Part shown: positions 854 through 59,890 of the stretch, one piece after another
Position numbering within the stretch: the stretch's first letter is position 1
How the letters are laid out: each line of letters opens with the position of its first letter
Made by a program: the position numbers and the translations under genes
The notes under the pieces: model-generated
The model's database searches: none
What the model was told of the DNA's origin: nothing
What the model saw: the letters and a program-made list of their open reading frames with translations, nothing else
Assembly (NCBI RefSeq): GCF_051622035.1
Contig: NC_135358.1
Coordinates: 9,899,001 to 9,963,000, forward strand
Reading direction: 5' to 3'
Length of the DNA stretch: 64,000 bases
From: Arctopsyche grandis
Taxonomy: Eukaryota > Arthropoda > Insecta > Trichoptera > Hydropsychidae

Positions 854-1045
854 GGTAAACGGATTATTTTGGACATTGTGATCGAGAAAATCGCGAATAC
901 GGAATATCTGGCACTCGAATTCTCGTTAGAATGACAGTTCGCGTGGATAAACCTCGATGAGTGGAATCTTCGACTGCCAGATATTCCGTGATCGATATTT
1001 TAGTGACGTGTGCGAGGTCGCCTTGTGCAAAATAATCACCGAACC
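854..1045. mobile_element. Short MITE, family Y copy 1 (192 bp)
   Basis: The element begins GGTAAACGGATTATTTTG and ends CAAAATAATCACCGAACC. It is flanked by a perfect 9-bp direct repeat ATTTTAAGG (845-853 and 1046-1054). Related copies lie at 19455-19667 and 57443-57610, and the terminal sequences are shared with the palindromic family F elements at 30080, 34394, 36612 and 59551. There is no coding capacity. A 9-bp duplication is typical of Mutator-like or Foldback-type insertions (family knowledge); the assignment is inference. Confidence 0.8.
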
Positions 1046-1140
1046 ATTTTAAGGACTCAAAATATTGAACAAAGCATAAAGTACAAGGCTAAAACTACAA
1101 CCGCCATAAAGCTTTATGACGGTCTCGCGAAAGTTTAATT

Positions 1141-1262
1141 ACTTTATCTATGTACGTAGTAACAATAGATGAAGTTTTGTGATCATGCGAAAATTCGAAC
1201 TCAAGATTTTGATTGGTTCGAACTCAGAATCGATCACTGATCACGTTTTCAAAATCTAGAAA
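1141..1262 (-). repeat. Dispersed repeat X, copy 1
   Basis: This segment contains the reverse complement of a sequence also found at 10018-10110 and 56062-56166, including GATCA-(C)AAA-CTTCATCTATTGTTAC. The copy at 56 kb is interrupted by a solo LTR exactly after TTGTTAC. It is a dispersed noncoding repeat; its class is unknown. Confidence 0.5.
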
Positions 1263-3971
1263 ATATATGTGTGTGTGTCTGTGTATTTGGGGATTTTTTG
1301 AACACCAATAATCCTATTGAACTGAAACTTAGTATTGGTTATTGAAATTCTTATCGACACGACGTTAATTTTTTTCAAATTTTTAAGTTGACCGGAAATG
1401 GTACCTCCCCTTATAAATATCCTCTTTTTTTGAAGTTTTTGAATTCAATTAATAGAAATTATAAATTAAATCTAGTTTTTTACTTTTGTCGACATTTACT
1501 TCATATTCCAATTATTTGGTTCAGCGAAATAAATTTGTGAACCCTGGGACTGAAAAACATTTCAATTATTTTCATTGCAATCGGAAAATTCCGCAAAACA
1601 AATACTATTTTATAATTTTGTGAAAAAAATGTAGGCCCCAATTAGGCTCTGGCAAAAACTTTTTTTGTAAATGTTGTGCCACGTGATGTTTAATTCTGAG
1701 TATGTTTTAATTCTTATCGGAAATAAAATATAATATATAGGAAATCACTTTTGTCCTGCGCGGCTAATTGGCGTGGCTTTTTCGGGGTGCCTTTACAAGC
1801 ACATGAAAGTTTTGACTATTTTAATCTGAAATTGAATCATTTTCATCGAATTTATGCAAAGTAGACTGTCACTGACACTCTAAAAGCAGGAAATTTCCTA
1901 GCCAGTGGGCAATCGACGGAATTGACCGAAAGTTCTTTCAAAATTTATCATATTTTTCCAGCAATATGTACGATACGATACTATATAATTATGGTAATAC
2001 AAAATTTAAACGCCATTTTTTTAAAGGACTTACTGGAAAGTTCAGAACATCCGTGTGGTTCAATCCAAGTCCATGGTTATGTGCATAAATATATTTCTTC
2101 ATAAACCTCAAACCTTTCGAATAATATAATATATACATGAATGTATGTATATACTGTAATTTAATAGATAATTACTTCATTTATAAACATATAAAATAAA
2201 TACTCTTTTATTTTATGTAAAATTTTAAATATTTATAATATATTATTATTATCATCATAGTAACAAAATAACATACGAGAGTCAGATAGTTAAAAACTAA
2301 TGGATAATTACTATAATAAATCATAATAAAATACAATGATTGATTATAATTTAAAAAACGCTAATGAACGACTCCATTTCTAATCCATTTGCTATTGTCA
2401 TTATGATTGATACACTCTTACTTTTTCGATTGGATAAAATTCAGAAAAGTCATTCGACAGTCGAAATCCCAAATACAGATCAAATCAACAGAAACAGAAT
2501 AAAATCGCGCATTAGTATAAAAGTAACATGTCTAAAGGCTACGCGCGAATGATTCCAAACACTTGCATACATACAACGTGGAAAGTAAAAGATTGCATTT
2601 ACGCATTTCGAAATCAAGACCGATCAGCGCGTGCAATGATGCGAATAATCGCCGCAGTGAATATCGAAAAAATTAATTGAACGAAAGCAAAATACAACGA
2701 GAGAGAGGAAATTAATTACCGAATATTAACGATTGGAAAGAGTAAACGAGCAAATTTTTAAATAATAATTTTATAAAATCACTATATGTATGTACGTATG
2801 TGTATGTATGTACCTAGTCGGACAACTATCGGATCGAACCGGTCAAATATGGGACAATCGATCGCAAACCGGTCACGGAGATACTCGATTGTAAGGAGTT
2901 GGTCTCGCATGCACAACCAGCCTGCTTCTTCAGTTGAAATTTGCCTGAAAGCAACGAGCAAATGCCGAAAGTGAAAATGTAGAACGAATAACGGGGCGGA
3001 TCGGAAGACAACAACCGGTCGAATATTATCCAAAGGCCTCGGTTCAGTTTTCGTCACATCCGGACACGAAATTACGACGAAGACCCTCGTCAGATGCATA
3101 TCAACGAGGAGATAAATGCCTCGACGCAGCTAATTGCACGCGTATCCAACCGGTGATTATAAACGCATTTCTGACAAAACAGCTTCGATATAATGTATTT
3201 ACGCACATACCTACGACAACTTTAGCGACACTGTGAACTAATTCCGAGACGAAAGCATGCATGTATTAAGGCCAGTATGAGTGCACAGAGAAACGTAAAT
3301 TACATATGTCCTTAGAACAAAGGTGACTAATGTCGCTGTTGCTAATCACTGAACGTTACGATTTTACATTCGAAGCGTAAACTTCAAAGTAAATGTATCG
3401 ACAAGTAAATGAAAGAAAAAGAGGCAGACCCCTGAATCGATTGATGTTGAGCATAAATAAATTCATAGCACTATGGACCAAGGACAAAGATTCTTAACCG
3501 TGTTTCTGAGGTTTATTGTGTAATTTTTCAGACATGTTGCCGACAAATATAAGTCAGTTTATAGAAGACTAGTAATTAATACAATTATGTATTAGTGTAA
3601 AGGTTGTTACTACTTTATTCAATGTGACGCATCAAACATCAACTTATTCGATAAAGTCTTTCCATGTGTTTGATTTGATTTTGGAACGTGCTCTGCTCTC
3701 AAAAAAAAAGACGAGACGAACTGGTTGCCTCTTTTTTTATAATATCTTGACATACGAAACAACAATTATCTGGAATGTTAATGTCATAATATTCTAATTC
3801 AGTAATAATTATTTATATTTAGGGCAAAAAAATAGACATGTCCGGTAGTAATTAGTAAAGAAGAGAAAATATACATATAAATGTATGAAATAAGAATGGA
3901 GTGCTTTTGGACGAACGAACGCCGCTTTTAAATCAAAAATGTAACTTTGCATCAAGAAAAAGATCTTCGAT
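1263..3971. other. AT-rich intergenic DNA
   Basis: The region is A/T-rich, with several chance frames under 110 codons on both strands (for example around 2782-3099) that overlap each other and carry no recognisable domain. A weak resemblance to the GGTCA-rich foldback repeats occurs near 2815-2880 but has no clear ends. No RNA gene was recognised. Confidence 0.5.
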
Positions 3972-4540
3972 CAATGTGTTTTGCCAGTAATGACATATAG
4001 ATGTGAAAATTGAACCAGTGGTGTGCCGTGGAAATCTGCCCGTTTTAATCGCACAATATTATTTACATGTGCGCGTACAGGATACAAGGACACTAGGTGA
4101 CTTGTATCCTGCTCCCTCACACAAGTGAGGCTATGCAATTTGCAAGTGCAAGACAAAGAGATTTCTACTGTATTGAACACCAAATATGTTACACAAAGTC
4201 CAATACACTCAAAGAAGTATTGAACGCTGTATGCTCGGCATAACTAGAAGATGTAGGAAACGGAATATGTGGGTGAGAAGTATGACAAGGGTAGTGGATA
4301 TAGTGAAGAAATTGAAATGGCTATAGGCGGGTCACGTAGCTAGATGAATGAACGAAAGGTGGATAAAAGAAGTTTTAAAATGGTACCCAAGAGAATGTAA
4401 AATGATTAAAGGAAAGCCGCAAGGAAAATGAGTGGACGAAATCAGAAAAATGTATGGGGTGATGGATAAGAGTTGCGCAAAATAGAGACGAATGGAAGCG
4501 TGTTGGAGAGGCCTTCGTCCATCAGTGGATGGTGAATATT
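3972..4540 (+). pseudogene. Decayed non-LTR retrotransposon 3' end
   Basis: Frames scattered over this stretch read like the C-terminal end of insect LINE reverse transcriptases. QCVLPVMTYRCEN starts at 3972, then after about 150 unrelated bases come ERCMLGITRRCRKRNMWVRS, KLKW, GHVARMNE, WYPRECK, RVAQNR and WKRVGEAFVHQW up to about 4536. The reading frame is broken by several stops and shifts, so it cannot encode protein. The interrupting stretch (about 4011-4190) starts CCAGTGGTGTGCCGTGG and may be a separate small insertion. Family recognition is from memory of the conserved tail; the clade is not assigned. Confidence 0.7.
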
Positions 4541-4559
4541 CGGCTGTCAACATAAATAT

Positions 4560-5535
4560 AGAATGTATGGATAGGCCCTTTCATAGAAATTTGTGGACCT
4601 AAAACGTGCCATACGACGAGGGGGTTTAAGGGGGCTCGCAGGGTTAAAAGTGCGGAACTATTAGAACCAAACACACTATATTTTTGCTGTTTTGGAACCA
4701 TTTTCATGGTGACGTTTTTGGCAAATAAATTCGCATCTACATATACATTATACATCGATGAAGACAACTTACACTGACCACTGTCAACGAACGACAATTA
4801 GAACCAATACATTTTGTTGCGACTTGGCAAGTGAAGGCGCTCGCATTTAAATATACATTATATATCGATGGCTGTAAATGAAGATGATGAATGCTCTAAT
4901 AGTGAGTAAACAAAACATTACATAACAACAATACTATATTAAAGTACTGTATTTTGATGCAAGTTCACGATGGTTTATTTCGGCTTGTCATCGTGTATGT
5001 TGATTATATTTTTACGATACATATTATATTTAAGACACAGCTTGGGTATACTATACATATTCAAATCAATTAATTCAGGCATATATTTTATAGCAATGTA
5101 CGGATTCATAAATACAATGTACATATTATATGTAGCGAGACACACGCTTTTGTCAAGCGAAAACTAATCGCATGAGCACACCTTTTACGCTGCTAAATAC
5201 GAAAGTGTGCTAAATATAAAAATAAGCTGAAAAAGAAACATACATAGGTACGCAGTAGAAGGAAAACGATTTTAAAAAAGACTGATTACTATTAAAAGTG
5301 GAACGAACACCTCAAAGGAATCCATTGACGGAAGTTACGCATTGAAAACTTATTCATGCAGATTTTTTTGCCGAAATAATTTCATAGGAATCGTCTACTT
5401 TTTCGTCAATTCATTTCTCTTTTTTTGTTTAAATTCTTCTCTTAAAAGAAAATTAAGTGCTCAGACGTCGTCGTGGTTAGGAGCGTATTTGGACAATGGC
5501 TTCTTAACGGAATCGCGCAAAAATCGTGACTATTT
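4560..5535. other. AT-rich intergenic DNA
   Basis: No gene recognised. Frames at 4522-4797 (-), 4970-5167 (+) and 5342-5542 (+) lack family features and look like chance openings in AT-rich sequence. Confidence 0.5.
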
Positions 5536-5540
5536 ATTAT

Positions 5541-5975
5541 AGCCAGCAGCATAGCTCGGACGTTAAGCTTCTGCTTACCGTCAAGAAGGTGCCGGGTTCT
5601 ATCCCTGAATGAAAATGAATTTTTCAGAGTATGCTGTTGGTCAGACCTGGATTTGTGACTCCAGGTTGATCGTTTCCTATCAGAGTTTGCCAATTTTCTC
5701 TGATTTCATTGTTGAAACGGTTCCCGGAAAAAAAAATTGGCTAAAAATCCTTCCTACCTACTATGTCACCACTATTTGAAAATTTGATGGATGTACAATA
5801 AGAATTTATGTACAATTCATAGATGTCTCGTTAATTTGCGAGTTTTTTCAGTGTCTTGCAATTCAACGAATTATAATAAAAAATGCTGCATTTGTATTTG
5901 TAATTGGCCAGGAAGGCGCATTGGGATTTTCCTGTAAGGCCTTCCTGGTATATATGTAAAATAAAATAAAATAAA
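5541..5975 (+). mobile_element. tRNA-derived SINE, copy 1
   Basis: The head starts CCAGCAGCATAGCTC and carries a degenerate A box and a B-box-like GGGTTCTATCC. It closes with ATGCTGTTGG, which pairs with the first ten bases. The body has GTGACTCCAGG, GATCGTTTCC, CAGAGTTTGCCAATTTTC and GAAACGGTTCC, shared by all copies in the window. The 3' end runs into an AATAAAATAAAAT tail near 5955-5980. Other copies are near 6.7, 7.4, 9.2, 34.9, 35.4, 35.9, 42.4 and 45.3 kb. Confidence 0.75.
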
Positions 5976-6718
5976 ATATAAGAAAATATAAACGTTACTT
6001 TTTTTATTTCTTTATATACGGCATTTCGCGTCATTGTTACTTCATAATAATTAGCTCAAAAGAGGCATTATAACGCGAAATACACTAACATGTATCGCCG
6101 TGTTGCCTTTTAATTAAAACAATACGTCATCATTGGAATCTCACGATTTTCGGAAATACCCTGACGAGCGAACGAATAAAAAAAATCCCAATTTATTTTC
6201 TCGTCTATACGAGTCCGCAAAAAAACAGATGATAATTAATTCCCGGCATCGCGTTACCCGATACTTCAAAGTCAAATCGGTCATATTTAAACAAAGAAAA
6301 AAAAATACATGAAAGCTTGTAAAAGTATAGCAATTTCAGACACAAGTTAACACCGTACTATGTGATAATGAATTTACAGTTAGACGTGTACCATGTGCGG
6401 TTGAGAAATTATCGGGTACCGGTTGTTAGTATACGGGGAACTAAGCTAACCGTTATTGCGTACAACGCGGAATACGCAATTCATTAATAATAATGCCTTG
6501 TAACAACTGAACCAGTGCCAAGGACGTCATACTGTTTGAAACGGTGCAAGTGCCCCTGTAAATCAAACAGGTCTGATCCAAGTCGATGAGACTTCATTTG
6601 GAATCATGTGTACCTACGCAGATGAAAAGTTGTGCAATCTATCAAAATGCAACATATGTATGTAAATGTGTAAGTTACTGTTTAAATACATCGTGAAATA
6701 TAAATTCATCATCAATAC

Positions 6719-6905
6719 AAAACCAGCGGCGTGGACTAGTAGTTAGCATTTTATGCTTTCGAGCGGAGTGGTCACGGGTTCGAGTCCCAATAGAGTCCCA
6801 CTGCTGGCCAGACCTTAGTTTGTGACTCCATATCGATCGTTTCTTATCAGAGATTGCCAATTTTTTTGATTTATATTGAAACGGTTCCTGTAAAATTGGT
6901 ATCTC
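6719..6905 (+). mobile_element. tRNA-derived SINE, copy 2
   Basis: It starts ACCAGCGGCGTGGACTAGT, has an A-box-like TAGTAGTTAGCA and a strong B box GGTTCGAGTCC near 6778. Then comes the shared body (GGCCAGACCTTAG, TGTGACTCCAT, ATCGTTTCTTATCAGAG, GAAACGGTTCC). The 3' extent beyond 6905 is uncertain. Confidence 0.75.
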
Positions 6906-6989
6906 ATTTCTTATCTCTCTTCAAGTTATTCAGCGTCTTGAGGTTCGCCAATTTGATTATAAAATGCTGCAAAAATTTCTCCGTATATT

Positions 6990-7380
6990 CATATGTCACT
7001 GTGGAAGTTTGTATGAATTTGCATTGTATAAAATGCTTATGTACATATATGTATATATTTATTGTATTGTACCTGTTTAAGTGCATTCGTCTGTGCACTT
7101 AAACAGTGATTAAAAGTTATCTGTAAAGGCGAGTGTTCAAGTTCTATATAATAAAACAAAATCATTATATTAGTACTCACGAGGGGTATCAAAATTCTAT
7201 TGATCAGGTTTTAAATATGTACATACATAGGAAACGAATACATGCACGATGGAACTGTATTAGTGAACAATTATTGTAAATATCTTATTTTATTTTATTT
7301 ATTTCATAATAGGTTAAACAAAATAGCCACAGCGTAGTGCATATGTAGAGAGAGCTATTTTATGTATATCAGTAGATAGG
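6990..7380. other. AT-rich DNA between SINE copies
   Basis: No gene seen. Short overlapping frames occur on both strands and there are ACATATGTATATA-type runs that recur across the window. Confidence 0.4.
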
Positions 7381-7384
7381 TCGT

Positions 7385-7988: not shown

Positions 7989-8016
7989 TTTACCTTTACC
8001 TTTACCTTTACCTTTT
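7989..8016 (+). repeat. TTTACC-type microsatellite
   Basis: About five tandem CTTTAC units. No function is implied. Confidence 0.8.
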
Positions 8017-19157: not shown

Positions 19158-19454
19158 TCTAAAAATACAATTGAAAAATATAAAATGAAATGAAAGCAAA
19201 CTGATATAATTTAAATAACAAACATCATACTTCTTGAATTTTAATTATAAATTTATTTAAAATTCCATGTGTTTTAGCCACGGTTGGATGTTTTACAGAG
19301 CAACGTACATTCTTGACAATAAACACCAGCACCACTCTGACAGCTGACAAATGACAAACGAATGAATGTTGCCAGTACACATTAAACATCTTCACATTAG
19401 GCCAATACTACGACAAAACTTTGTGTACAAAACGGTAAACGAATTATTTCTCAC

Positions 19455-19667
19455 GGTTTGGTTATTATTCCGCACAAAGTGATCTCACACACGTCACTAA
19501 AATCTCGATCACGGAGCATTTGGCAACCAAAAATTCCATCCATCGAGAGCTAACCACCCGAACTATTATATTAAAGAGAACTCGAGTGCCAGATATTCCG
19601 TATTCACGATTTTCATGACAACGATTATCGTGTGGGCGATCGCAATGTGCAAAATAATCCATTTACC
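19455..19667. mobile_element. Short MITE, family Y copy 2 (213 bp)
   Basis: It starts GGTTTGGTTATTATTCCGCA and ends CAAAATAATCCATTTACC. It is flanked by ATTTCTCAC (19446-19454) and ATTTCTTAC (19668-19676), a 9-bp duplication with one mismatch. The interior matches copy 1 in inverse orientation (CACACACGTCACTAAAATCT, CAGATATTCCGTATTC). It lies about 300 bp upstream of the Rab3GAP start codon, so it may overlap the promoter. Confidence 0.75.
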
Positions 19668-19883
19668 ATTTCTTACATTGCGATCGCGCTTTCGACAAAT
19701 CAGCATTCGCCCTCTTTTTTATTGCAATTTTTTGTTTCGAATTCTTTATCAGCACTCTTTATAATTTAATTATAATTTACCGACTTGCATGTTTACAAAT
19801 AAATTACATTTTTGAAAAAAATTGTAAACAATAATATTGAAAATATGATATACATACATGATCAACAGATTTCGACCTGTTTA

Positions 19884-20342
19884 AGGTCTGTTCATACTTA
19901 ACAGCACTGCACCGTTTCAAATATGTCATTTTATTACATTTCTATTCATATCTACCTACACGTCGCGGTCACGTCACGTTCACAGCACTTTAAAAAATTT
20001 AAAATTTTTTAAATATTTGCGCCAAAACCATGTCGAAAGACTGAACAGCTGTCAACTGTCACTATCGATAATTGGTCCAAAACAGCAAAACAGCAAAGCG
20101 GCAGACTCATGGCACGTAATTCGCGTGTATATTTCCACGATGGCCAAAAAAACGGATACGATACGTTGACGAATGTTGCTGTAAGGTATGAACAGGAAAT
20201 GTCGGGTACTGCTGTAAGCCTGCCGTGGCGTAAACGTGACGGTTAAAATGAACATACCCATACAAAATGTACCAAAGAATACTTTTCGTACGGCCGGATA
20301 CCTGCTGAAGTCGGTACGTGCTGACTAGGTATGAACAGACCT
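19884..20342 (+). mobile_element. Harbinger-like nonautonomous element, copy 1 (459 bp)
   Basis: Ends are AGGTCTGTTCATACTTAACA and ACTAGGTATGAACAGACCT, flanked by TTA on both sides (19881-19883 and 20343-20345), as expected for PIF/Harbinger insertions. Relative to the copy at 58189 it lacks the internal part that encodes the transposase-like N-terminus. It contains TATCGATA near 20062. Confidence 0.75.
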
Positions 20343-20345
20343 TTA

Positions 20346-20870
20346 CGGGGTTTGTAGGGGTTCTCCTGGTTCTATACTTGTCGATTCGCAGCCAGCTATA
20401 CCAGCTGGCGGGCAAAAAGCTCGAGACCAGGTCACGAAAGGCACTCTCGTCGATGCTGGCTGTGGCGAGGTCTTTTCTTTATGTAGACGGCTTTTGACTG
20501 TTCTGTTAACAGATGCGTGTGAAGAGGGCGGGAGCTCCAGGAACTATAGAGCTACTACTAAGCTCGACTGCACTTGGGTTCCTCGGCTCAATTCTTGTGA
20601 TGATAATAGGACAGAAGAGCGATCTCTCGACCGTGTCCGTTGGAGGTCCGATGAGAAGAGAGCGCGTTTCTTCTCGCATTTATTATTCATGTTGCGCCGC
20701 GCAGCAAATGTTTTGCCTAGTGTGCGTGCTGCCATTCAAATATATGGGAATAAAAAATACTTCCTGAAGCATTAGCAGTGTATGTGCTGCATGCGTATTT
20801 GGTGTACAGCCGGACTAAGAATTGTGTCTCCAGATATGTTTGAATTGTAGCATGGATATGATTCATACCT
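20346..20870. other. GC-rich spacer between two inverted Harbinger-like copies
   Basis: About 520 bp, distinctly GC-richer than its surroundings, bounded by copy 1 (plus) and copy 2 (inverted). Overlapping frames at 20494-20775 and 20513-20767 have no recognisable domain; the second has a hydrophobic stretch. It could be captured cargo, the remnant of a larger element, or an LTR fragment. No function is assigned. Confidence 0.4.
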
Positions 20871-21662
20871 AGTCAGCACGTACCGACTTCAGCAGGTATC
20901 CGGCCGTACGAAAAGTATTCTTTGGTACATTTTGTATGGGTATATTCATACCAACCGTCACGTTTACGCCACGGCAGGCTTACAGCAGTACCCGACATTT
21001 CCTGTTCATACCTTACAGCAACATCCGTCAACGTATCGTATCCGTTTTTTTGGCCATCGTGAAAATATTACCGCGAATTACGTGCCATGAGTCTACCGCT
21101 TTGCTGTTTTGCACCAATTATCGATAGTGACAGTTGACAGCTGTTCAATCTTTCGACATGGTTTTGGCGCAAATATTTAAAACATATTTAAAAAAAATTT
21201 TAATTTTTTACGGAAATATTTAAAAAAATTTGTCCATCATCCATAAGCTCCTTATACAGTGTCCAAAACTCTCCTTCGGTTTTTCTATTTTTTAACATGG
21301 GATGCACATCAAAACGCCTCCGTGCTTTTTTATTGCCTTCTTGAGTTTCTTCTTCCAACAACAGCGCGATTATACATAATTTTTCGTTCGATAAACGTCG
21401 AAACATTTTTGCCGACTTGTATTCTGACGCGTAGCTACGAATGCACGTGTATGCATTCATATTGCAAGTACTCGACGATACGACGTAAGCGATATTGCGC
21501 TGTATCGTCATGGCCTCTAATGTATAAGTAAGCCGATTTTGCCTTGCACTCGGCCAAATTGCTGTAAACGTGACGTGACCGCGAGGTAGATATGAATAGA
21601 AATGTAATAAAATGACATATTTGAAACGGAGTCGTGCAGTGCTGTTAAGTATGAACAGACCT
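20871..21662 (-). mobile_element. Harbinger-like nonautonomous element, copy 2
   Basis: Inverted relative to copy 1. The right end is GTTAAGTATGAACAGACCT followed by TTA at 21663. The outer 8-9 bases of the left end are missing (it starts ATTCATACCTAGTCAGCACG). On the minus strand 21511-21200 encodes MFRRLSNEKLCIIALLLEEE and RRRFDVHPMLKNRKTEGEF, which resembles the N-terminus of HARBI1-type transposases. The frame then runs into noncoding sequence, so the transposase is deleted. Its right end is only about 180 bp from the BTB gene start codon. Confidence 0.75.
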
Positions 21663-21844
21663 TTAGTCTTATGATTCCCTAAAAATATTTAAGTAAAAAG
21701 AAACAAATTTTGTTTACTTTCATTATGGAGTGGTAGTACTGCATGTCTTGTATATTGGCTATCCGACTGTCATTGTTCATTGTTGACGTTTGTGTTGACG
21801 TTTATCAACGGTAACCTGGGGAATTCGTGACACTCGAAGCTAAA

Positions 21845-25898: not shown

Positions 25899-28800
25899 CT
25901 ATCTATGTCTGTGGCCGGACGCATGATGTGAGGTATGTCGTGACATTCTATGTTCCTCAGCTGCTCTACGCAACTCCTCCATTCGTCTTTCGTGTTCAGC
26001 CATATGTTTACGTCTTTGTTCTTCTTTCACTAATATCTAAAAAACAAAAACGACAATCAATTACGTGTAATTAAATTATAAGCTTATCATTAAACTCTTT
26101 AGTACAATTCCACTTACAGTCTCTGCATTTAATGGCAACCAATAAATACAAGGAGTTGCCTTTGTCTTTTTAAATAAATCATCAAGCAGTTTAGAGGGAG
26201 CTTCTTCCTCTTTCTTTTTAAATTTACGAGCTGAAAATTTAAAATTAAAATATATCAACACATATTCAATATGCGAAATTGACGAAAAAATTAAAACGAA
26301 ATAAATATGTACCAGGAGAAGGACTTCGAGATTTGGTACGTCTTTTCCTTCTCTCTACCTCGTTAGGATCACGATGTCTGTTATTATGTCTATCTAAAAA
26401 CTCATCCCTTCCATCTCCTTTTCCAAGATCCCACTCTCTGACAACTGTTCGTTTTTCAAAAGTTTTTTCATCTAATTCCTGTAAAAATATAAACAAAACA
26501 AAATGATAACAAAATACATTATTTCAATATATTCCAAAAGACAAAAGAAGCCAAAACATACTATTCCTGAATTTTTCACATCTTTAATAGAATCTTTTGG
26601 CCAAGCCTCTACAACTCCAGGTTTGTCTTCTTCAGTGCTAGCAACAGCTTCATCCATAGATTCTTTTGAACCAAAATCTACATTGAGAGTTTTAGGATTT
26701 GAAACTGGCCAAGTGACCCCGTGTAAAGCGTGTCGAGTCTCAATAGCTTCACTAAAAATTGAAATAAACATTAAAACACGTATAAATGTTTAAGCAATCT
26801 ACAAGTGGCTACCATATAAGAATACTTACTCTTCCGTTTCATATTGTACATAACATTTTGACTTTATTTTGTCAATCCAAAATCCATTCTCGACTATTTT
26901 GCCAGTTCTCTGTAATAGGTTCTTCAATTGAGGCAATGTGAACGGCCTGACAAGGTTTGTTATATATAATACTGTGGATGATTTGTACTTTGGTGGACTA
27001 GGAGGCGATTGCAACTTTGTTGCTTCTTCATTTATAATGGATATTTTACGATGAGATAGACTACCGACAAGATCTTTATCGACTACATTTTCAGAAACAC
27101 TATATTTCCCATTCGTATTCGGACTATTGTCAATGACGATCTTTTTTGGTTTAACTTCCACATCCTTAATTTTCATATCCGATAATATTTCTTCGGCGCT
27201 CACTGGTTCCACATTTGATATCAAATTCTTTAACGAATCAGTAGATATATTTACAGAAGGCGCTTTAATTAATTTCGGTCTAGATCCCCACTTCCTTTTC
27301 CTAGACGAATTCGCCGACACAGCCTCTACCTTATGCGTCTCTTCAACATCATTCTTTACAACGGGCGGTGCATCGTGCACCGAATTATTCGACTTCGGCT
27401 CATCCCTTTTAACATGCCGAAGCGGGGAACGACGAGGCGGAGGAGTTTCGCTTTTCTCAACAATCACAGGAGGTTCTTCATCGTCAATTACTTCAGACTT
27501 TTTCGCACCGACCTCTTTAACCTCCGGTACATCTACAGGAACTTCCGCTTGCGAGTCTGGCTTTTTAACTTCGACTTGCGAGTCTGGCTTTTTAACTTCG
27601 ACTTGCGAGTCTGGCTTTTTAACCTTGACTTGCGAGTCTGGCTTTTTAACTTCGACTTGGGAGTCTGGCTTTTTAACTTCGACTTGCGAGTCTGGCTTTT
27701 TAACTTCGACTTGCGAGTCTGGCTTTTTAACCTTGACTTGCGAGTCTGGCTTTTTAACTTCGACTTGGGAGTCTGACTTTTTAACTTCGACTTGCGAGTC
27801 TGGCTTTTTAACCTTGACTTGCGAGTCTGGCTTTTTAACTTCGACTTGGGAGTCTGACTTTTTAACTTCTACTTGCGAGTCTGGCTTTTTAACCTTGACT
27901 TGCGAGTCTGGCTTTTTAACTTCGACTTGCGAGTCTGACTTTTTACCTTCGACTTGCGAGTCTGGCTTTTTAACCTTGACTTGCGAGTCTAACTTTTTAA
28001 CTTCGACTTGCGAGTCTGACTTTTTAACTTCGACTTGCGAGTCTGACTTTTTAACTTCGACTTGCGAGTCTGACTTTTTAACTTCGACTTGCGAGTCTGA
28101 CTTTTTAACTTCGACTTGCGATTCTAGCTTTTTAACTTCGACTTGCGAGTCTGACTTTTTAACTTCGACTTGCGATTCTAGCTTTTTAACTTCGACTTGC
28201 GAGTCAGACTTTTTAACTTCGACTTGCGAGTCTGGCTTTTTAACTTCGACTTGCGATTCTAGCTTTTTAACTTCGACTTGCGAGTCTGACTTTTTAACTT
28301 CGACTTGCGAGTCTGGCTTTTTAACTTCGACTTGTGAGTCTGAATTTTTAACTTCAACCGCTTCCACAGAAGTGGTCGCATCGGCAACTGCAATAGGAGG
28401 ATCGGGTGATTTTTGATCGGTTTCTGTAGACTCTGCAATAGGTTCAGTTTCAACTTCCATGGGTTTAGGTTCAGATATGGCTTCTACTATAGGCTCTGGC
28501 ATTGTGACCGGCTCCGGAGGAGTTATCGTTTTGACTTTTTCGTCTTCTATAGGTTTAACACGTTCGACGGATTTGACGGGAGCTTCTTCAACGATTGGGT
28601 CGGGCTCAGGTTCTGTAATTTTTTCCGGTTGTTTAGATTCTACGGGTTGCTCGGGTTTTATAACTTGTTCCGGCTGTTCAGATTCTACAGTTTTCTCAGG
28701 CTCTTTGGATTGTTCCGGTTCTTTAGAATGTTTCAGTTCTTTAGAATGTTCCAGCTCTTTAGATTGTTCCGGTTCTTCAGATTGTTCTTGTTCATTAATT

Positions 28801-29555: not shown

Positions 29556-30070
29556 CGTCCCGCTATTCGCGACCAGCTATCGCCAAACCGAGCACCGAAC
29601 ACCGAACACCGAACACCGAGCACCCACACCCACACCCACAATCACACGACCACCACAGCGCGCGCACTCGAGAGCGACCGCGCGTCGTCGCTGCCTTTCT
29701 TCTTCTTCTTCGCAATAGCGCAGGCCGTAACGCACCAAATTGCGGCCATCACTTTCGACCGAATGTACGCGTCGTAATTGATGCGGTGATTATGTACATC
29801 CCAAATGTGAATCGCTACCAGGATATACGCCACTACGAAAATCGCCGAACGGAAAACTCCCCAAATATTGTTCAGCAAATCCTTTTTCTTGCAAATCTTA
29901 CGCTATTTTTATTTTTGTTTTTTATTTTAAATCTCTAAGTTTTTCTTTTTTTTTTTTACCTATATGTGAAAATTCTTAATGGTTTTACTTAAAATAATTA
30001 TGTTTTTATTATCAATCTATGTAATTTAATAAACTGTCAATTTTCCAAATAAAATAAAATAGAATTACCG
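29556..30070. promoter_or_regulatory. GC-rich 5' region of Acinus
   Basis: GC-rich sequence extends from the first exon to about 29760. It contains tandem CGAACAC units (29590-29625), CACACC repeats and a CT-rich TTCTTCTTCTTC run. It lies directly upstream of the start codon on the minus strand and is probably the promoter and 5' UTR. From 29890 the sequence becomes AT-rich. No TATA box was identified. Confidence 0.45.
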
Positions 30071-30964
30071 ACTAGAGTCGGTTCGGTGATTACTAGTCAA
30101 ATATGAACCGGTCACAGGACAACCGGTCGCTCTAGATCGGTCATATATGATCACCCATCACACTAAAACTGGTCACACCCTAAAACTGGTCACGATAAAA
30201 CTGGTCACACCCGAAAATTGATCACGAAAAAACTGGTCACACCCAAAAATTAGAAATTGGTCGAATTTTTGGGTATGACCAGTTTTTTCGTGACTAATTT
30301 TCGGGTGTGACTAGTTTTCTCGTCACCAGTTTTAGTGTGACGGGTGATCACGTGTGACCGATCTAGAGCGACCGGTTAAGGTCTGTTCATACCTAGTCAG
30401 CACGTACCGACTTCAGCAGGTATCCGGCCGTACGAAAAGTATTCTTTGGTACATTTTGTATGGGTATATTCATACCAACCGTCACGTTTACGCCACGGCA
30501 GGCTTACAGCAGTACCCGACATTTCCTGGTCATACCTTACAGCAACATCCGTCAACGTATATCTGTTTTTTTGGCCATCGTGGAAATATACACGCGAATT
30601 ACGTGCCATGAGTCAGCCGCTTTGCTGTTTTGGACCAATAATCGATAGTGACAATTGACAACTGTTCAATCTTTCGAAATGGTTTTGGCGCAAATATTTA
30701 AAAAAAAATTTAATTTTTTACGGAAATATTTAAAAAAATTTTGTCCATCGTCCACAAGCTCCTTATACAGTGTCCAAAACTCTCCTTCGGTTTTTCTATT
30801 TTTTAACATGGGATGCACATCAATACGCCTCCGTGCTTTTTTTATTGCCTTCTTGAGCTTCTTCTTCCAACAACAACGCGATTATACATAATTTTTCATT
30901 CGAGAAACGCCGAAACATTTTTGCTGACTTGTATTCTGACGCGTAGCTACGAATGCACGTATAT

Positions 30965-32838
30965 CAGTGGCGGCTCGTGATAATTTTTAGTGGCGGGGCT
31001 GCACTGAAAAGATGTCTAAAAAATGTCACCATAATTGTTCTATCATGTCATAACAGGACAAAATAAGCACAATTTTTAGCGTACGACCACTTACATGTGG
31101 ATTTAAGTACTATTGAAAAAAAAACTAGCAAAATTCACCACCCATTAAAGGGGTGCGTCCAAACGCGATGAAGATTTCGAAAAATACGCTGCTACTCCAG
31201 TAAGATTGCTAAAAAAAATTCGCGCTTGCTGGTTTCGCGACCCGGCTTTCTCAACAACTAAATTAAGTTGATGAGCATAACAGTGAACGAAGTGTGCATT
31301 TTTATAAGTTTGTTTCAAAATTTTCTGTACACCTCCCCTCTCTCCGCTCATTACAGCGGCACCGTCGTAAGTTTGAGCAATAAGTTTTTCATTGTCATCG
31401 TTTAAAACTAGTTTTAATTGTTCAGTAATGCATGCGCTCTTATTTTCCGGATTAAAAAAAACCCCAAAAACTTTACCCCCTAATTCGTAACGAAAAACAT
31501 TAACCTGTTGACAATGCATCGATACATCGGTTGTTTCATCTGCCATAACAGCTAGATAAGTTGCTTTTTTTTTATTTCAGCACTTATTTGTTCCCTACAC
31601 ACGTTCAAAATAAAATCTTAAAGTTCATTTTGAATAGTTTTTGATGTCCCTTTAAAAACCGAAGAAGTTTGAAAATGTTTTTTTAAAGAATCGTCGAAAT
31701 TTTGTGAATATTCTAGAAGCCCCCGAAAAACTCCTGGATTTTTTGAATTATCTGTTTCATCGTGTCCCCTCATTGGCATTTCAAATTTACCGCAAAATTT
31801 AATCAATAATTTTAAATAAAACATCCCGATTTTTTTTGACGTTTTCGTTATGCTTATCTATTTCCCGCCGACAAGCTTCGCTTAAATGGGTTTTTATGTT
31901 AGCCGATCACAAAATCGTGAGATTACACACATTTTTTAAGTGTTCGACACTTCCCTCGTGTTATTTAATTTTATCGTTTAAATGTTTTAAGTCAATAACT
32001 CCTGTTTTATAAATGTCTGGATTAAATTTTCGCGAGTAACTAAAAGATCTACTAGTTGCAGGCTGTGAAATAATTAAATTGGGCGTGAGGCAGCCTAATG
32101 CTTTTATAGCGACTTTTTCGGTAAGTTCTAGTCGCGAAAAGTGCAAATTTTGTAAATATTTTACTGAATTCTTTTTTTCTTCCATTTTTAAAAGAAAAAA
32201 AAACTTAATATATTTAAATAAAAATTACGAGAAAAAGTTAAACAGATTTGATAAAATTTTGCTGTTATCAAAATGAAAACGACTCACCGAAGATTTGATG
32301 AGGGCTCGTACACAACCAATTAAGAGTAACGAAAACGAATAAAGCTGTGATCGTGCGATTCAACTAATCAAATGTAAGATCAAGCGCGCGAAATCTTAAA
32401 CAAACTGACAGATGAATGTCGTTTAACAGGCGAAGGCTGCCGACTATCCAGCCCAAAACGCCAGAGTGAGTGAAAGAGAAAGAGCTATCTGCAGTTGCAA
32501 ATAGCTCTTTCTCTTTCTCGTTCCGCAACTCCGGGCTGCGTGGCGTTCAGGGCGGCGCTGTAAAACTTTACAGCCAGTACAACAACATTTTAATTCATCT
32601 GTCACCATACAAGTTAGTAGGGTCTTCGAAACGGTCAACATTACTTACAATATCACCCTTTTGGATATGGGTGATATTGTAAGTAATATTTACTCTGTCG
32701 AAGGCCCCAATAGTTCGTCCACCCAACTAATAAAAAAAATATCATTAATAAATAAAATATTAAATGTATTATTAATATATTTTAGAATTTTATAGGAGGG
32801 GCTGCAGCCCGGCAGCCCATTAGGACGAGCCGCCACTG
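30965..32838. mobile_element. hAT element with perfect 8-bp target duplication
   Basis: Terminal inverted repeats CAGTGGCGGCTCGT and ACGAGCCGCCACTG are flanked by ACGTATAT at 30957-30964 and 32839-32846. The uninterrupted Harbinger copy at 58 kb shows the equivalent unfilled site. The 1874-bp element carries a broken transposase on the minus strand and two strong hairpins near its right end: 17-bp stem at 32472-32488/32501-32517, and 18-bp stem at 32641-32658/32669-32686. It is too short and broken to be autonomous. Confidence 0.95.
31145..32185 (-). pseudogene. Broken hAT transposase (ZMYM/TTF-type family)
   Basis: Minus-strand frames at 32185-31961, 31824-31618 and 31546-31145 together read like parts of hAT transposases related to zinc-finger MYM-type proteins. 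The recognisable catalytic-core segment includes MADETTDVSMHCQQVNVF, AQTYDGAAVMSGERGGVQ and HFVHCYAHQLNLVV. Stops and frameshifts separate the pieces, and the C-terminal dimerisation part is missing after LDAPL. It cannot make a working transposase. Confidence 0.8.
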
Positions 32839-33257
32839 ACGTATATGCATTCATATTGTAAGTACTCGACAATACGACGTAAGCAATATTGCGCCATATC
32901 GTCATGGCCTGTAATGTATAAGTAAGCCGATTTTGCCTTGCACTCGGCCAAAGTGCTGTAAACGTGACGTGACCGCGACGTGTAGGTAGATATGAATAGA
33001 AATGTAATAAAATGACATATTTGAAACGGAGTCGTGTAGTGCTGAAGCCGTGCAGTGCTGTTAAGTATGAACAGACCTTTATCCTGTGAGTGGTTCACAT
33101 ATGACTAGTAGTCCGTTTACCATTAGAGTCAGTGGTTCTTAACCTTTTCAGTGAGCCGCACCCCTTTGAATCTGAGAATATGTTCCCGCACCCTCTGGAA
33201 AAATGAGTTTTGGAATCTTTAATTTAGAAAAATACATTTTTTGTAAGGTTTTTTTTC

Positions 33258-34393: not shown

Positions 34394-34750
34394 GGTAAAC
34401 GGACTACTAGTTATATGTGAACCAGTCACAGGACAACCGGTCGCTCTATGTAGATCGGTCACACTAAAACTGGTTACGAGAAAACTGGTCACGAGAAAAC
34501 TAGTCACACCCCAAAACTGGTCACGAGAAAATTGGTCTCACCCGAAAATTAGTCACGAAAAAACTGATCATACCCAAAAATTCGACCAATTTTTAATTTT
34601 TAGGGTGTGACCAGTTTTTTCGTGACCAATTTTCGGGTGTCACCAGTTTTCTCGTGACCAGTTTTAGTGTGACGAGTGATCACGTGTGACCGATCTAGAA
34701 CGACCGGTTGTCCTGTGACCGGTTCACATTTGACTGGTAATCACCGAACC
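34394..34750. mobile_element. Foldback element, family F copy 2 (357 bp)
   Basis: Inverse orientation: it starts GGTAAACGGACTACTAGTTA and ends GACTGGTAATCACCGAACC, flanked by perfect GCCTTCTC (34386-34393 and 34751-34758). The arms are tandem AACTGGTCACGAGAAAACT-type units in one half and their complements in the other. It lies inside the hAT-like element at 33130-34798. Confidence 0.9.
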
Positions 34751-36611: not shown

Positions 36612-36824
36612 GGTTCGGTGATTACTAGTCATATGTAAACCAGTCACAGGACAACCGGTCACTTGTGATCACCTGCCACACTAAAACTGGTCACACCCTA
36701 AAATCGGTCAACCAGTTTTCTCGTAACCGTTTTTAGGGTGTGACCAGTTTTAGTGTGACCAATCTAGAGCGACCGGTTGTCCTGTGACTAGTTCACATAT
36801 GACTAGTAGTAGACCGGCGCTACC
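36612..36824. mobile_element. Foldback element, family F copy 3 (213 bp)
   Basis: It starts GGTTCGGTGATTACTAGTCA and ends in a variant terminus AGTAGACCGGCGCTACC. Flanks are ATATTCTG (36604-36611 and 36825-36832), a perfect 8-bp duplication. The arms carry CACTAAAACTGGTCACACCC and its complement. It is the shortest family F copy. Confidence 0.85.
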
Positions 36825-43987: not shown

Positions 43988-54301
<10,314 letters not shown>

Positions 54302-56060
54302 GATTCTAGACATGAGGTTTGTTCTATCATACATGAGCATTTTTGGCCTGCAATGTCACAGCTTTTGTGAACTGAGCTATATATAACAGGCACCGGGCTT
54401 TTTGGAAAATTGATATCTTGTTTACTACATTTTGTAAATAACCTTAAAACAGGTAAAATTTCACAGTGAAAGTTGAGGTTTCACGTTTTCCAATTCACGT
54501 TTTAATGTTGGAACACTATTTTATTGTTTCAGGTAATGGATACCTTGTGGGAAATTCGTATTGGAGTGCTAGGAGATAAGTCACGAATAGTGAATGTAAC
54601 TGCGTGGTATATTATAACCAGGAAGGAAGATGCTTTGTTACGGATTACATGTACATGTACTAAGGAGTTTTTTTTATGTGGAAGGCGACTAATTTTAGAT
54701 GTGCAATTTCTAACAAACCAATACAGTTTAATACATACTAAATAATGCATCGCTTCTTGTATTTCATTGACTAGTTAGTTCTCATATTGATTTTACTCAA
54801 TTTTTTTTATCCACAGAAAGCTTAGCAAAGGAATAGCTGCCCAAAAATATTCTTCAATTTAATTTAACTTTTCCTGCATTTTTAAATTTGTTTTTGTTTT
54901 TTTTTTTTCTATACTTTCCATTATTACAGTTTATGAATAACTTAATGTAAGATAAACAGTTTTGTAGTCTTGTAAACATAATGGTTGATTAGATTGTAAA
55001 TGTTAACATTCCGTAATAATCATAACTTCTGAATAAAAATACAAACACGATATTCATTAAATTACAGGTTGACTTTGTTTTTTTTTTCTTGTGAGAGTCT
55101 TATAATGCTGAGTATATTTGAGATTCCATAATTAATCAGTTAACATCATAATTAAAATCAAAATATTGATAAATCCAATGAAATTTGTATTTGATATCAC
55201 CGTATATATGTGTGCATATATTTAAAAGCTTAAAAGATTAGTTCATTGGCCGAGTAATTTCCTAGTATGTGTACTGACTTTGATACCTGGTTGTGTGAGC
55301 TCTGTTTTGATGGAAATACTTTCGAAATATTTGTCAAGTGTTCAATTTAAATTGGTAATTAAATATAAACGGTCGTTTCTTTTTTTTTTTTTTTAAAGCC
55401 AATACAATTATTGGTTTAAAATGCATATTTTTTCCCGAGAGAAAATTTTCACAATCGTCACAGACCACATGCTTTCACGATAAAGTTGAATATTTTTCTA
55501 CACATACTTTAAAAACAAAAAGATTTTTTTGTTATTGTGATATTAATAACCAAGTTCGATTTAGTCATATTTTCCACTATCTGTTTAAAACGTTAGTATC
55601 GTTTATTAACAACATTCTCATTAACTTTGACAATTGTAAGAAAAAATAATTTCTAGAATAAAACAATAAATTTATACCTATGTTTTATTTTCCCTTGTAA
55701 ATTTTATTGTTTCAGTTTGATTTTCTACCACTGGGCTCGTTCAGTCCAGCAATTTGTTTTTTTCTAGCCTAGTTACTGAAATATTATATTTTTAGTGTCT
55801 ATTAATACAGTAAATACACAGCTTGATATGACCGTTGGAATTTGGTTGCTTTCATGATTATTGAATTAGATTGATAATGTACATGTTTTATTTTTTTTAT
55901 TATAACATTGATTTGTATTCAAATGAAGGTTTAACATTGATTCAGGTAATATAGTATTGTCCTCAATGGGTATTTTTTTTATTTTCCGATAAATGTTCAT
56001 AAATAAGTTGTATGAATTCTGGAAAAACAAATAGAGAACATTAAAAAAATAACACACATT
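54302..56060. other. Helicase 3' UTR and downstream AT-rich DNA
   Basis: A possible 3' UTR intron runs from a weak donor near 54316 to TTTATTGTTTCAG|GTAATGG at 54533. The 73-codon frame at 54524-54745 has no domain. AATAAA at about 55033 is a plausible mRNA end. Beyond that only AT-rich sequence is seen. Confidence 0.4.
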
Positions 56061-56061
56061 T

Positions 56062-56166
56062 CTTTCTAGTTCATGAAAACATGATCAGTGGTCGATTCTG
56101 AGTTCGAATCAGTCAAAATCTGGAGTTGGAATTTTCACATGATCACCAAACTTCATCTATTGTTAC
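56062..56166 (+). repeat. Dispersed repeat X, copy 3, split by a solo LTR
   Basis: It contains GTCGATTCTGAGTTCGAA, CATGATCACCAAACTTCATC and TATTGTTAC, then resumes after the LTR with TTACTATGATAAAATAAA at 56713. Matches 1141-1262 in inverse orientation. Confidence 0.55.
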
Positions 56167-56712
56167 TGTTACGTAGGGGTGGGTGGAGGATCCAAGTAAA
56201 AGGCCAAAGTCGTGTCACAGCATTTATTAATGATTAACCTTTCCATCATGTATAGAAATGAGCGTCACAGCCCGATGGGGGGAACTAAGTGACCCCAAGA
56301 ATTTTAAGTCCAAAGTTAGGTTGTTTGATACACAAATTTATTGTCAAGAGGTTTTAAATATATTGTAACTTCTTAAGGAGATACACGCACTGGCAGTGCT
56401 CCGTCCAGAATGTCTTGATATCGCCTAAGTACCGCCTTTATAACGGGTCGGTCGCTCCAGGCATCTTCAACGTCTGGTTTATTTGCCTATTGTTATGGTC
56501 ACGTACTCGGATATGTATTCCCACGACATTCGGTACCACGGTATCGGTCACTTCTAAGAAGGGACCAATAACGGCCAACTCGGTGGCCATTGCTTAGCCT
56601 ACATGCACTTATTAATGCTTGTAACCAATTATAACGGTCGCGCAGTGTCAGGGATGCGTCTCGCCCTAATCCGATTGCACTTAACCGGCGGCTGTTTTTA
56701 GTATACGTAACA
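56167..56712 (-). mobile_element. Solo LTR C
   Basis: On the minus strand it begins TGTTACGTATACTAAAAACA and ends CCACCCACCCCTACGTAACA. It is flanked by TTAC (56163-56166 and 56713-56716). The minus-strand 3' 55 bp match LTR A at 41419-41821 (GGCCTTTTACTTGGATCC). No internal region. Confidence 0.85.
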
Positions 56713-56716
56713 TTAC

Positions 56717-57442
56717 TATGATAAAATAAAAATAAAACCCCCGAGGTACTGACTAAAACTATCGGTTGGCCAGTGCTTTCATTCGCCCGATCCTCATAAT
56801 GTTTACATATTTCATGCAGTGGTATAATATTGGGAGAATCTTAAACATGAAGGTGGCTACACATGTAATTGCATGCTTCACAAGCATACATGATCAATCA
56901 TTTTGTACAAGCATGCAGTGGCGTCGCTAGAGTTGGTGTTAAATGGTGTACAATGCGCTTTGGCTGCTCTTTATGGTTTTCAAGAGAAAAATGCGAAAGA
57001 AGAAACGTAGGATGTGGTGTAGACTGGTTTATATTAACTTGAGTGAATTTTAAAGGCAACAAATTAATGTTCATTATTTTAATCAACTTCGGTAAGTATA
57101 TAAATCAGATTTGGCCAGTATTTTATTAACAAAATGGTCAGTATTATATTATAAAATTTCAGTATAAAAATCTGATGCATACATTCTCTAGAACAAATAG
57201 AAATGACTGTTGTCTATCAAGATCGTATCAACCTTGTGGTGATACCAACCAAAAAGTAATACTGGCCATTTGTTAAAATAAAATTTATCATTTACATTAA
57301 TACTGATCTTTCGTATTTAAATACTTACCAGTAAAATAGAAACCAATTTAAAACTAACACAAGCTTTACATAAAGCTTTACATACAAGCATTCCATCACG
57401 CTTGCGCAAACATTTTATGTACAAGAATGCAGATGAAAATTC
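56717..57442. other. Intergenic DNA with a possible hAT-like end
   Basis: CAGTGGCGTCGCTAGAG at about 56920 resembles the 5' terminus of hAT-type MITEs, but no matching right end was found. Otherwise AT-rich, with no gene. Confidence 0.35.
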
Positions 57443-57610
57443 GGTTCGATGATTACTGGTCACAAAGTCACTAAAATCTCTAACGGAACATCTGGCAGCC
57501 GAAAAGTCCATCATGCCAACGAGAACTTGAGTGCCAAATATTGCGTATTCGCGATTTTAATGGCAAAAATTTTCTGTGACCACCGCAATGTGACTAATAA
57601 TCCAATTACC
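57443..57610. mobile_element. Short MITE, family Y copy 3 (168 bp)
   Basis: It starts GGTTCGATGATTACTGGTCA and ends GACTAATAATCCAATTACC, flanked by GAAAATTC on both sides (57435-57442 and 57611-57618). The interior is shared with copies 1 and 2 (AAAGTCACTAAAATCTC, GTGCCAAATATTGCGTATTC). Its left 20 bases match family F better than the other Y copies do. Confidence 0.8.
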
Positions 57611-57737
57611 GAAAATTCAAAGCTTTAAGCCACTTGTACGATCAAAATGCTATATCATGTATGCATGCTTGTCAAGTCTGTATCTTGAATTTCCATCTGC
57701 ATGCTCGTGTAAGTGAATATTATTCGTAATGATGATA

Positions 57738-59285
57738 TTTATTACTAGTGTTGTGTCCGATGAAATATCATCGAATAGGTTATGGCATATTAACGTATGA
57801 CGTATTTTCTGTTGAGAGCCCGCCACGCTGAAAATTTTTCCAACTAGAATTATTTAGAAGTCCGATATAAAAATTGTAGCTGATCCAAAAAAAAACCCTA
57901 GAACTACTGCCGAGGATTTTGAGTTTTGTAAAGTTGTGTTTAAACTCTATATCTTGCAACAATATAAAATAAACAAAATAAGTATTAATGAATGTAGTTT
58001 TCCAAAACTAGTTCCATCTTCTTCATGGTTGTTAAAATGTAATGCTCACACTCTAAATGCCAAGCCACAACCTAAAATACTCAGCAGTTAGGGATTTCCA
58101 TCGCGTAATTCTGCTATGGTTATAAATTCAGAAATTCCGGTGTAAACGAATCTTTATAAATGTGACAAACGAATGACACGGATTAAGGTATGTTCATACT
58201 TAACAGGACTGCACGGCTTCAGCACTGCATGACTCCGTTTAAAAGATGTCATTTTATTACATTTCTATTCAGATCTACCTACACGTCGCGGTCACGTCAC
58301 GCTTACATCACTTTGGCCGAGTGCAAGGCAAAATCGGCTTACTTATACATTAGAGGCCATGACGATACGGCGCAATATTGCTTACGCCGTATTGTCGAGT
58401 ACTTACAATATGAATGCATACACGTGCATTCGTAGCTACGCGTCAGAATACAAGTCAGCAAAAATGTTTCGGCGTTTATCGAACGAAAAATTATGTATAA
58501 TCACGTTTTTGTTGGAAGAAGAAGCTCAAGAAGGCAATAATAAAGCACGGAGGCGTTTTGATGTGCATCCCATGTTAAAAAATAGAAAAACCGAAGGAGA
58601 GTTTTGGACACTGTATAAGGAGCTTGTGGATGTGGACAAATTTTTTTTAAATATTTCCGTAAAAAAATTAAATTTTTTTTAAATATTTGCGCCAAAACCA
58701 TGTCGAAAGATTGAACAGCTGTCAACTGTCACTATCGATAATTGGTCCAAAACAGCAAAGCGGCAGAATCATGGCACGTAATTCGCGTGTATATTTCCAC
58801 GATGGCCAAAAAAACGGATACGATACGTTGACGGATGTTGCTGTAAGGTATGAACAGGAAATGTCGGGTACTGCTGTAAGCCTGCCGTGGCGTAAACGTG
58901 ACGGTTGGTATGAATATACCCATACAAAATGTACCAAAGAATACTTTTCGTACGGCCGGATACCTGCTGAAGTCGGTACGTGCTGACTAAGTATGAACAG
59001 ACCTTTATACGACCCATGTTCAATGCATTTTTTTTCAAAACTGCCTAGAAAGGCTTAGCGGGTAGTATTCTTGTTTACTTTGTATATGATCAAAATACAA
59101 CGTTTTTCAGACCTATGGACTTGTTGGCAAAACGTCGATCAGCGTTGGTCAGCATTCAAAGGGTTAAGCTATTAATTAAAAAAAAAGAAAAGTGTAGGTT
59201 TTGTGTTCGATCCTCACGCGGTCGTATTTTTTTTTTAATATATTTAATTTAATATTTATATTTAATTGTTTAATATGAAAAACTA
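57738..59285 (+). repeat. Repeat W, long copy carrying a Harbinger-like insertion
   Basis: It starts TTACTAGTGTTGTGTCCGAT, includes the internal part found at 46196-46575, is interrupted at 58189-59006, resumes with CATGTTCAATGC and CTTAGCGGGTAGTATTCTTG, and ends with GTGTTCGATCCTCACGCGGT and a poly-T/TATTTAATTG tail. No coding capacity recognised. Confidence 0.65.
58189..59006 (+). mobile_element. Harbinger-like nonautonomous element, copy 4 (reference copy)
   Basis: Ends AGGTATGTTCATACTTAACA and GACTAAGTATGAACAGACCT with TTA on both sides. About 820 bp. The frame at 58462-58682 encodes MFRRLSNEKLCIITFLLEEE, RRRFDVHPMLKNRKTEGEF and WTLYKEL, like the start of HARBI1-type transposases, and then ends in an internal deletion. 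The right third (MARNSRVYFHDG... frame) is well conserved among copies but may simply be terminal noncoding sequence. It contains TATCGATA near 58732. Confidence 0.8.
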
Positions 59286-59550
59286 CCTACCTACATATAA
59301 ACAATATAAAACACCATTAGAGAAATTAATTAATTAAATACTTTTTCAATAGATGGCGCTAAATGCCCAGAGACTTATTTCCCTAGAGGAAACATTAATA
59401 ACAAACAGTATATATAGGTGTTTTTCGTTCATCTGGTATTATATTCGTACGTTTTGTTGGCAGTGCTTTTACATATGTCGAATCAAAATGACTATTATAG
59501 TACGGCGAGTGTTATCTCACACAGACACACAGAATAACGCTATTATACAT

Positions 59551-59890
59551 GGTTCGGTGATTACTAGCCAAATGTGAACTGGTCACAGGACAACCGATCG
59601 CTCTAGATCGGTCACACGAGATCACCCGTCACACTAAAACTGGTCACGAGAAAACTGTTCACACCCGAAAATTGTTCATGAAAAAACTGGTCACACCCAA
59701 AAATTAAAAATTGATTGAATGTTTGGGTGTGACCAGTTTTTTTTGTGACTAATTTTCGGGTGTGAACAGTTTTCTCGTGACCAGTCTTAGGGTGTGATCA
59801 GTTTTAGTGTGACGGGTGATCACGTGTGACCGATCTAGAGCGACCGGTTGTCCTGTGACTGGTTCACATATGACTAGTAGTCCGTTTACC
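59551..59890. mobile_element. Foldback element, family F copy 4 (340 bp)
   Basis: It starts GGTTCGGTGATTACTAGCCA and ends GACTAGTAGTCCGTTTACC, flanked by perfect ATTATACAT (59542-59550 and 59891-59899). The arms contain tandem AACTGGTCAC units and complements, with a short centre around AATTAAAAATTGATTG. Confidence 0.95.

Follow-up and report, generated by a model that had tools for sequence, protein, structure and literature searches.

Transposons with the same ends and different insides have been described for Tetris and DAIBAM, a foldback element and a miniature inverted-repeat transposable element (MITE) of the Drosophila virilis group (PMC4079207), and for the derivatives of Muta1, reported with the Mutator-like elements (MULEs) of Aedes (PMC5225508). 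Strongly unlike terminal inverted repeats (TIRs) likewise have a precedent in Merlin, the hallmarks of which are conserved GG termini, target duplications of 8 or 9 bp and a DDE_Tnp_IS1595 protein (PMC8101967). Here, we analyse a stretch of 64,000 nucleotides from the insect Arctopsyche grandis (NC_135358.1, positions 9,899,001 to 9,963,000; part of contig C4 of a 475.7 Mb genome), hereafter the window, which carries seven copies of two element families, Y and F. A third interior, Z, bears the same two 13-base ends. The Y, F and Z elements are non-autonomous cut-and-paste DNA transposons, namely foldback-type MITEs: they are short (139-357 bp), multicopy and non-coding, with inverted ends and a target duplication of fixed length. 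Their near-absolute pairing of one left with one right end is an addition to an earlier interpretation of this DNA made from its letters alone (the sequence-only reading).

Common ends, unlike interiors and paired termini

The sequence-only reading had proposed seven copies with the same two ends and an 8-9 bp duplication at each of them. Direct inspection of the seven copies confirmed both 13-mers at these places and all seven duplications, those at 19455 and 30080 with one mismatch. Both 13-mers start with GGT. The left one occurs exactly at 1033 (minus strand), 30080, 34738 (minus strand), 36612 and 59551, and has two mismatches in the copy at 19455 and one in the copy at 57443. When up to three mismatches are allowed, the window counts do not exceed chance (left end, 19 versus 16.75 expected; right end, 37 versus 32.03 expected), and the case therefore rests on the exact matches, the pairing and the duplications. 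Over the whole genome, the left 13-mer was found exactly 4550 times (2323 + 2227), compared with 16 times (9 + 7) for its reversed control.

Target duplications were then assessed in left-right pairs of distinct sequence, 90-420 bp long and with at most two mismatches per end, drawn from the window, from loci taken for other reasons and from the first 30 loci listed, which all lie on contig C1. An 8-9 bp duplication flanks 36 of these 43 pairs, 23 exactly and 13 with one mismatch, and the consistency implied by the sequence-only reading is thus found beyond the window. The 9 bp form (18 exact, 10 with one mismatch) predominates over the 8 bp form (5 exact, 3 with one mismatch), and seven pairs have none; among 19,515 swapped-flank controls, no exact match and 102 matches with at most one mismatch in 9 bp were obtained. 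The P and hAT superfamilies make 8 bp target duplications, and the predominance of 9 bp therefore argues against membership in either. The target itself shows a palindromic preference: at 27 nine-bp sites (at most one mismatch), T precedes the duplication in 21 and A follows it in 23, while its first base is R in 23 and its last is Y in 23.

The common ends enclose no fewer than two unrelated kinds of interior, that of Y and that of the related families F and Z. The interiors of F and Z align with a score of 43, which none of 200 shuffles reached. Past the ends, Y has no detectable likeness to F or Z, its scores being reached by 47, 65, 128 and 142 of 200 shuffles, the first two of these for the comparison with F. 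The interiors of Y and F thus resemble each other no better than shuffled sequences do, so that Y is no deletion product of F, and the claim that the two are unrelated holds. The description of F as foldback-like was equally borne out, for this family only: F combines long inverted arms with internal tandem repeats, the 12-base units AAAACTGGTCAC separated by short spacers.

From base 14 inward, F and Z form near-palindromes, and the outer 13 bases are unlike. Over bases 14-73, the two arms of an F element are 68-97% identical and its ends agree at 7/13 positions (six copies compared); the one Z copy compared has arms 90% alike and ends alike at 7/13. One Y copy (L017) resembles them, with arms 88% alike and ends alike at 8/13, and the other five of the six compared Y copies have imperfect arms, 53-61% alike.

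Pairing was counted genome-wide by exact patterns, the right pattern permitting variants and the left none. Among elements of 191-221 bp, 950 are left-right, seven left-left and four right-right, with none for the controls. For F elements of 248-278 bp, the numbers are 153 left-right and three left-left, right-right lying outside the count. Of the 156 F elements counted as left-right or left-left, 153 thus have unlike ends, although F is near-palindromic; the family separates the sequence that a transposase must recognise from the rest of the element, and points to a functional asymmetry of the ends that is hard to see where inverted repeats match. In the sampled DNA (at most one mismatch per end, 90-1000 bp), a duplication was present at 29/39 left-right, 0/3 left-left and 0/2 right-right pairs.

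Common ends, unrelated interiors and consistent 8-9 bp duplications together argue that one end-recognising transposase, acting in trans and wanting one left and one right end, probably moves these elements, whichever superfamily it belongs to. The sequence-only reading had likewise proposed one transposase for unrelated interiors; its common ends, unrelated interiors and duplications stand, and the transposase itself is a probable addition to them. Such an enzyme would be supplied in trans, bind the terminal ~13 bp of one left and one right end, excise the element and insert it anew at a palindromic target, T[RTNNNNNAY]A, with a duplication of usually 9 and occasionally 8 bp, while the interiors would be free to vary. 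Foldback arms would form by copying of one arm onto the other as far as the GATTA/GACTA common to the inner edges of the ends, and only products retaining unlike ends would spread.

Several points weigh against this mechanism. The 43 pairs are a non-random sample with some dependence among them, as L083 and L084 are copies of a single locus and a few pairs overlap, and the sole background for the target preference is AT-rich base composition. The left-left and right-right numbers in the sampled DNA are small; two of these five pairs (one at L079, one in the window) look like chance combinations of neighbours, and the left-left pair of L045 derives from an inverted duplication. Inheritance accounts for part of the one-of-each pattern, because each family is a lineage that started with unlike ends. 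Finally, the search for an autonomous copy carrying these ends was negative in the places examined, and mobilisation in trans is therefore inferred.

Inheritance could also be taken further: the common 13-mers may be relics of one ancestral family, with Y and F/Z its diverged descendants and no pairing rule at work. The F and Z interiors are indeed still related, and clonal inheritance alone yields left-right pairs. Yet Y shows no such likeness past the ends, homogenisation of the arms reaches base 14 in F, Z and a single Y copy with the ends still unlike, and left-left products do occur in F but are rare (3 versus 153), so we consider this explanation improbable. A stricter form of the transposase mechanism, in which the transposase can assemble on no other combination than a left 13-mer with a right 13-mer, is put forward tentatively and is somewhat less likely to be right than wrong. 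If it is true, unlike-ends selection leaves foldback elements near-palindromic except for their last 13 bases, and the thousands of natural copies represent a ready mutational scan of left versus right end identity.

One genomic region recurs in these counts. Two of the three left-left F elements lie in the 30-34 Mb region of contig C2, which also contains amplified copies. Nineteen listed left ends followed by TC lie at ~30.6-34.4 Mb, and the two inspected, L083 and L084, represent a single Y insertion with identical surroundings; the region therefore looks amplified. The MULE copies L063 and L067 are also situated there.

Copies and other features of the window

The positions of the seven copies, together with a degenerate Z arm, are collected in the table below.

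Elements of the Y, F and Z families in the window. Five copies were scored by script; those at 30080 (interrupted) and 36612 (diverged) were judged by eye.
Element	Position	Strand	Length	Target duplication	Ends and arms
Y-family MITE	854..1045	-	192 bp	exact 9 bp, ATTTTAAGG	right end GGTAAACGGATTA at 854-866; left end GGTTCGGTGATTA at 1033-1045, minus strand
Y-family MITE	19455..19667	+	213 bp	9 bp, ATTTCT(C/T)AC, one mismatch	
Y-family MITE	57443..57610	+	168 bp	exact 8 bp, GAAAATTC	
F-family foldback MITE	30080..33121	+		9 bp around the whole, A(C/T)TAGAGTC (ACTAGAGTC/ATTAGAGTC), one mismatch	left part 30080-30378; right end 33082-33121
F-family foldback MITE	34394..34750	-	357 bp	exact 8 bp, GCCTTCTC	right end at 34394; left end 34738-34750, minus strand
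F-family foldback MITE	36612..36824	+		exact 8 bp, ATATTCTG	diverged right end
F-family foldback MITE	59551..59890	+	340 bp	exact 9 bp, ATTATACAT	arms (bases 14-73) 90% alike; ends alike at 7/13
Degenerate left arm, third family (Z)	~29780..29890	+			87% identity to Z copy L079 over 29784-29845

A second Y element, of which a right end remnant is left at 19434-19446, received the Y copy at 19455 in its right arm. The copy at 30080 is a real F insertion as proposed earlier, and turned out to be an F element interrupted by nested transposons rather than a long member of its family: a 2.7 kb insert occupies 30379-33078. By eye, this insert is a TTA-flanked element with ends AGGTCTGTTCATACC, which we take to be PIF/Harbinger-like, and it is split in turn by an element at 30965-32838, CAGTGGCGGCTCGTG flanked by ACGTATAT, presumably hAT-like. 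Relatives of the outer element are located at 58180-59007 and 19883-21665. Elsewhere, the window contains genes for TBP, a DEAD helicase, and BTB and leucine-rich-repeat proteins; this gene content and the types of transposon present point to an animal and probably to an insect. A tandem repeat with a 27 bp unit, in about 30 copies, occupies 27540-28355 within a stop-to-stop frame of 916 aa on the minus strand, for which there was no Pfam match at E 0.001.

Superfamily and the search for an autonomous copy

The sequence-only reading had attributed the elements to Mutator-like or Foldback-type activity; the 8-9 bp duplication and the F arms agree with this, and Mutator identity was not established. 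The combination of GG termini with duplications of this length suits Merlin no less than Mutator, and in our estimate Merlin is the most likely superfamily, with about an even chance. Both 13-mers begin with the GG of Merlin, and the duplications at 36 of the 43 pairs, 13 of them with one mismatch, have its length, which is also that of MULEs. Three Merlin-bearing families in this genome have at least one end starting with GGTA: L072, L090 and the GGTAAAAGTC element of L045. L072 is an apparently complete Merlin of 1246 bp with a 9 bp duplication and a 318 aa open reading frame (ORF) matching PF12762; of its ends, GGTACCGG and GGTGCCGG, one starts with GGTA and the other with GGTG. L090 is a Merlin-fragment family with an 8 bp duplication and the ends GGTACT and GGTATT, and the GGTAAAAGTC element represents a second such family.

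The assignment to Merlin has to be set against three observations. L072 lacks the T...A target flanks (A before, T after). Beyond the first bases, the likeness of the 13-mers to the resident Merlin ends is weak: in 20,000 draws each, the left-end score was reached by 3967 random GG and 6421 random GGT 13-mers, and the right-end (F) score by 554 and 1126, respectively. Moreover, both 8 and 9 bp duplications within one family and the 12-base tandem units of F are MULE-like features (PMC5225508).

Owing to these tandem units and mixed duplications, the main rival is that the same mechanism employs a missing Mutator-like transposase, F elements being type-2 Foldback derivatives of a MULE. The Aedes MULEs make 8-9 bp duplications, their TIRs exceed 100 bp in 12/14 families, and 10 of these 12 families have subterminal tandem repeats of 9-15 bp; in Muta1 the units measure 12 bp and are spaced by 3-4 bp, and the TIR is all that most of its derivatives have in common with it (PMC5225508). 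The F units AAAACTGGTCAC with short spacers resemble this arrangement, MULE proteins are resident at 60 places, and one resident MULE, in the L069 region, carries similar subterminal units of 15-16 bp on its left side. None of the 23 places examined among these 60, however, lies within a left-right pair at up to two mismatches per end, and the only resident MULE end that was located, tentatively, starts with GAGATGTTACAG. We therefore hold a Mutator-like transposase to be somewhat unlikely.

The MULE of the L069 region spans L091, L069 and L092 (C11:25.82 Mb). Its 15-16 bp subterminal tandem units on the left side read GACAAAATGTACCCGC, and on its right side ~197 bp repeats matched in inverted orientation.

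For an autonomous copy, we examined 22/41 places matching PF12762 (Merlin-like) and 23/60 matching PF10551 (MULE-like), mostly with 1.5 kb flanks; of the latter, 20 were taken with such flanks (three of them extended), and for three more the flanks only. The 52 resulting regions, in which some places were scanned twice, were searched for bracketing end pairs. The sequence-only reading had suggested looking for a longer copy encoding a MULE-type or other transposase, and none with these ends was present among the places examined. At up to two mismatches per end, a left-right pair surrounds the match in two of the 52 regions, L076 and L045; at up to three, in ten, with a duplication at L045 only. 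The pair at L076 was rejected, as its ends come from different, unrelated MITEs on either side and there is no duplication.

At L045 (833-1944), a right-left pair 1111 bp apart is flanked by the 9 bp duplication CTGG(C/T)ACAT with one mismatch, and this Y element encloses a Merlin transposase fragment. The Merlin part interrupts an otherwise standard Y interior in the middle; it possesses separate ends, GGTAAAAGTC, and an 8 bp repeat of its own, GACTTTTC, one copy of which is mismatched, as judged by eye in a rearranged locus. We therefore read L045 by eye as a separate Merlin MITE nested in a Y element, followed by an inverted duplication that also copied the right flank. Should this interpretation prove mistaken, the locus would speak directly for Merlin.

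Other routes gave no autonomous copy. Protein searches with two resident Merlin proteins did not reveal one; neither did left ends with an unusual next base, which yielded family Z and an amplified copy on C2, nor the interior of a long Z copy, of which ~48 bp recur, the one further site inspected adjoining an apparent host gene. The Merlin relics L087 and L088 have no matching ends, and the fragments L087-L090 are without the 13-mers described here. An autonomous copy may lie in the remaining places, in longer flanks or outside the assembly, and the end and target-site signatures allow it to be recognised, here or in related species.

Several resident sequences deserve mention in their own right. 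L071, L073, L074 and L076 are Merlin-like ORFs with open frames of 287-424 aa, two of them ~5 kb apart on C6, in which no terminal repeats with a duplication were detected; possibly, they are host genes derived from transposases. Near L074 and L076, MITE debris was found, with no bracketing pair with a duplication. A Merlin-related relic with two TGA stops matches ~residues 60-152 of the query protein at the 41 listed places. The two of these inspected, L087 and L088, are 94% alike over 1.09 kb, with no matching terminal repeats.

Relation to described systems

The left 13-mer gave no match in a literature text search, and none of the papers listed by searches on Merlin, foldback elements and MITEs with common or unlike ends describes the family, as far as titles and the beginnings of abstracts tell. 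Among described systems, Tetris/DAIBAM also has common terminal TIR portions, 8-10 bp duplications, tandem repeats in the arms and no autonomous copy found (PMC4079207). It differs in that DAIBAM mostly aligns to Tetris and is called its probable deletion product (PMC4079207), whereas here Y has an interior unrelated to that of F, there are thousands of left ends and the two ends are unlike. Muta1 and the Aedes MULEs likewise make 8 or 9 bp duplications and have derivatives with varied interiors, and their subterminal tandem repeats of 12 bp, spaced by 3-4 bp, are like the F units (PMC5225508); in contrast, no MULE examined here has the ends of Y, F and Z. Merlin shares the 5'-GG termini and duplications of 8 or 9 bp (PMC8101967). 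It differs from the present families, for which the examined PF12762 places held no autonomous Merlin with these ends, and in which only the outer 13 bp differ and the arms of F and Z nearly match further in. MITEs that have only their ends in common are already known, and what stands out here is the combination of homogenised foldback arms with retained, unlike terminal 13-mers.

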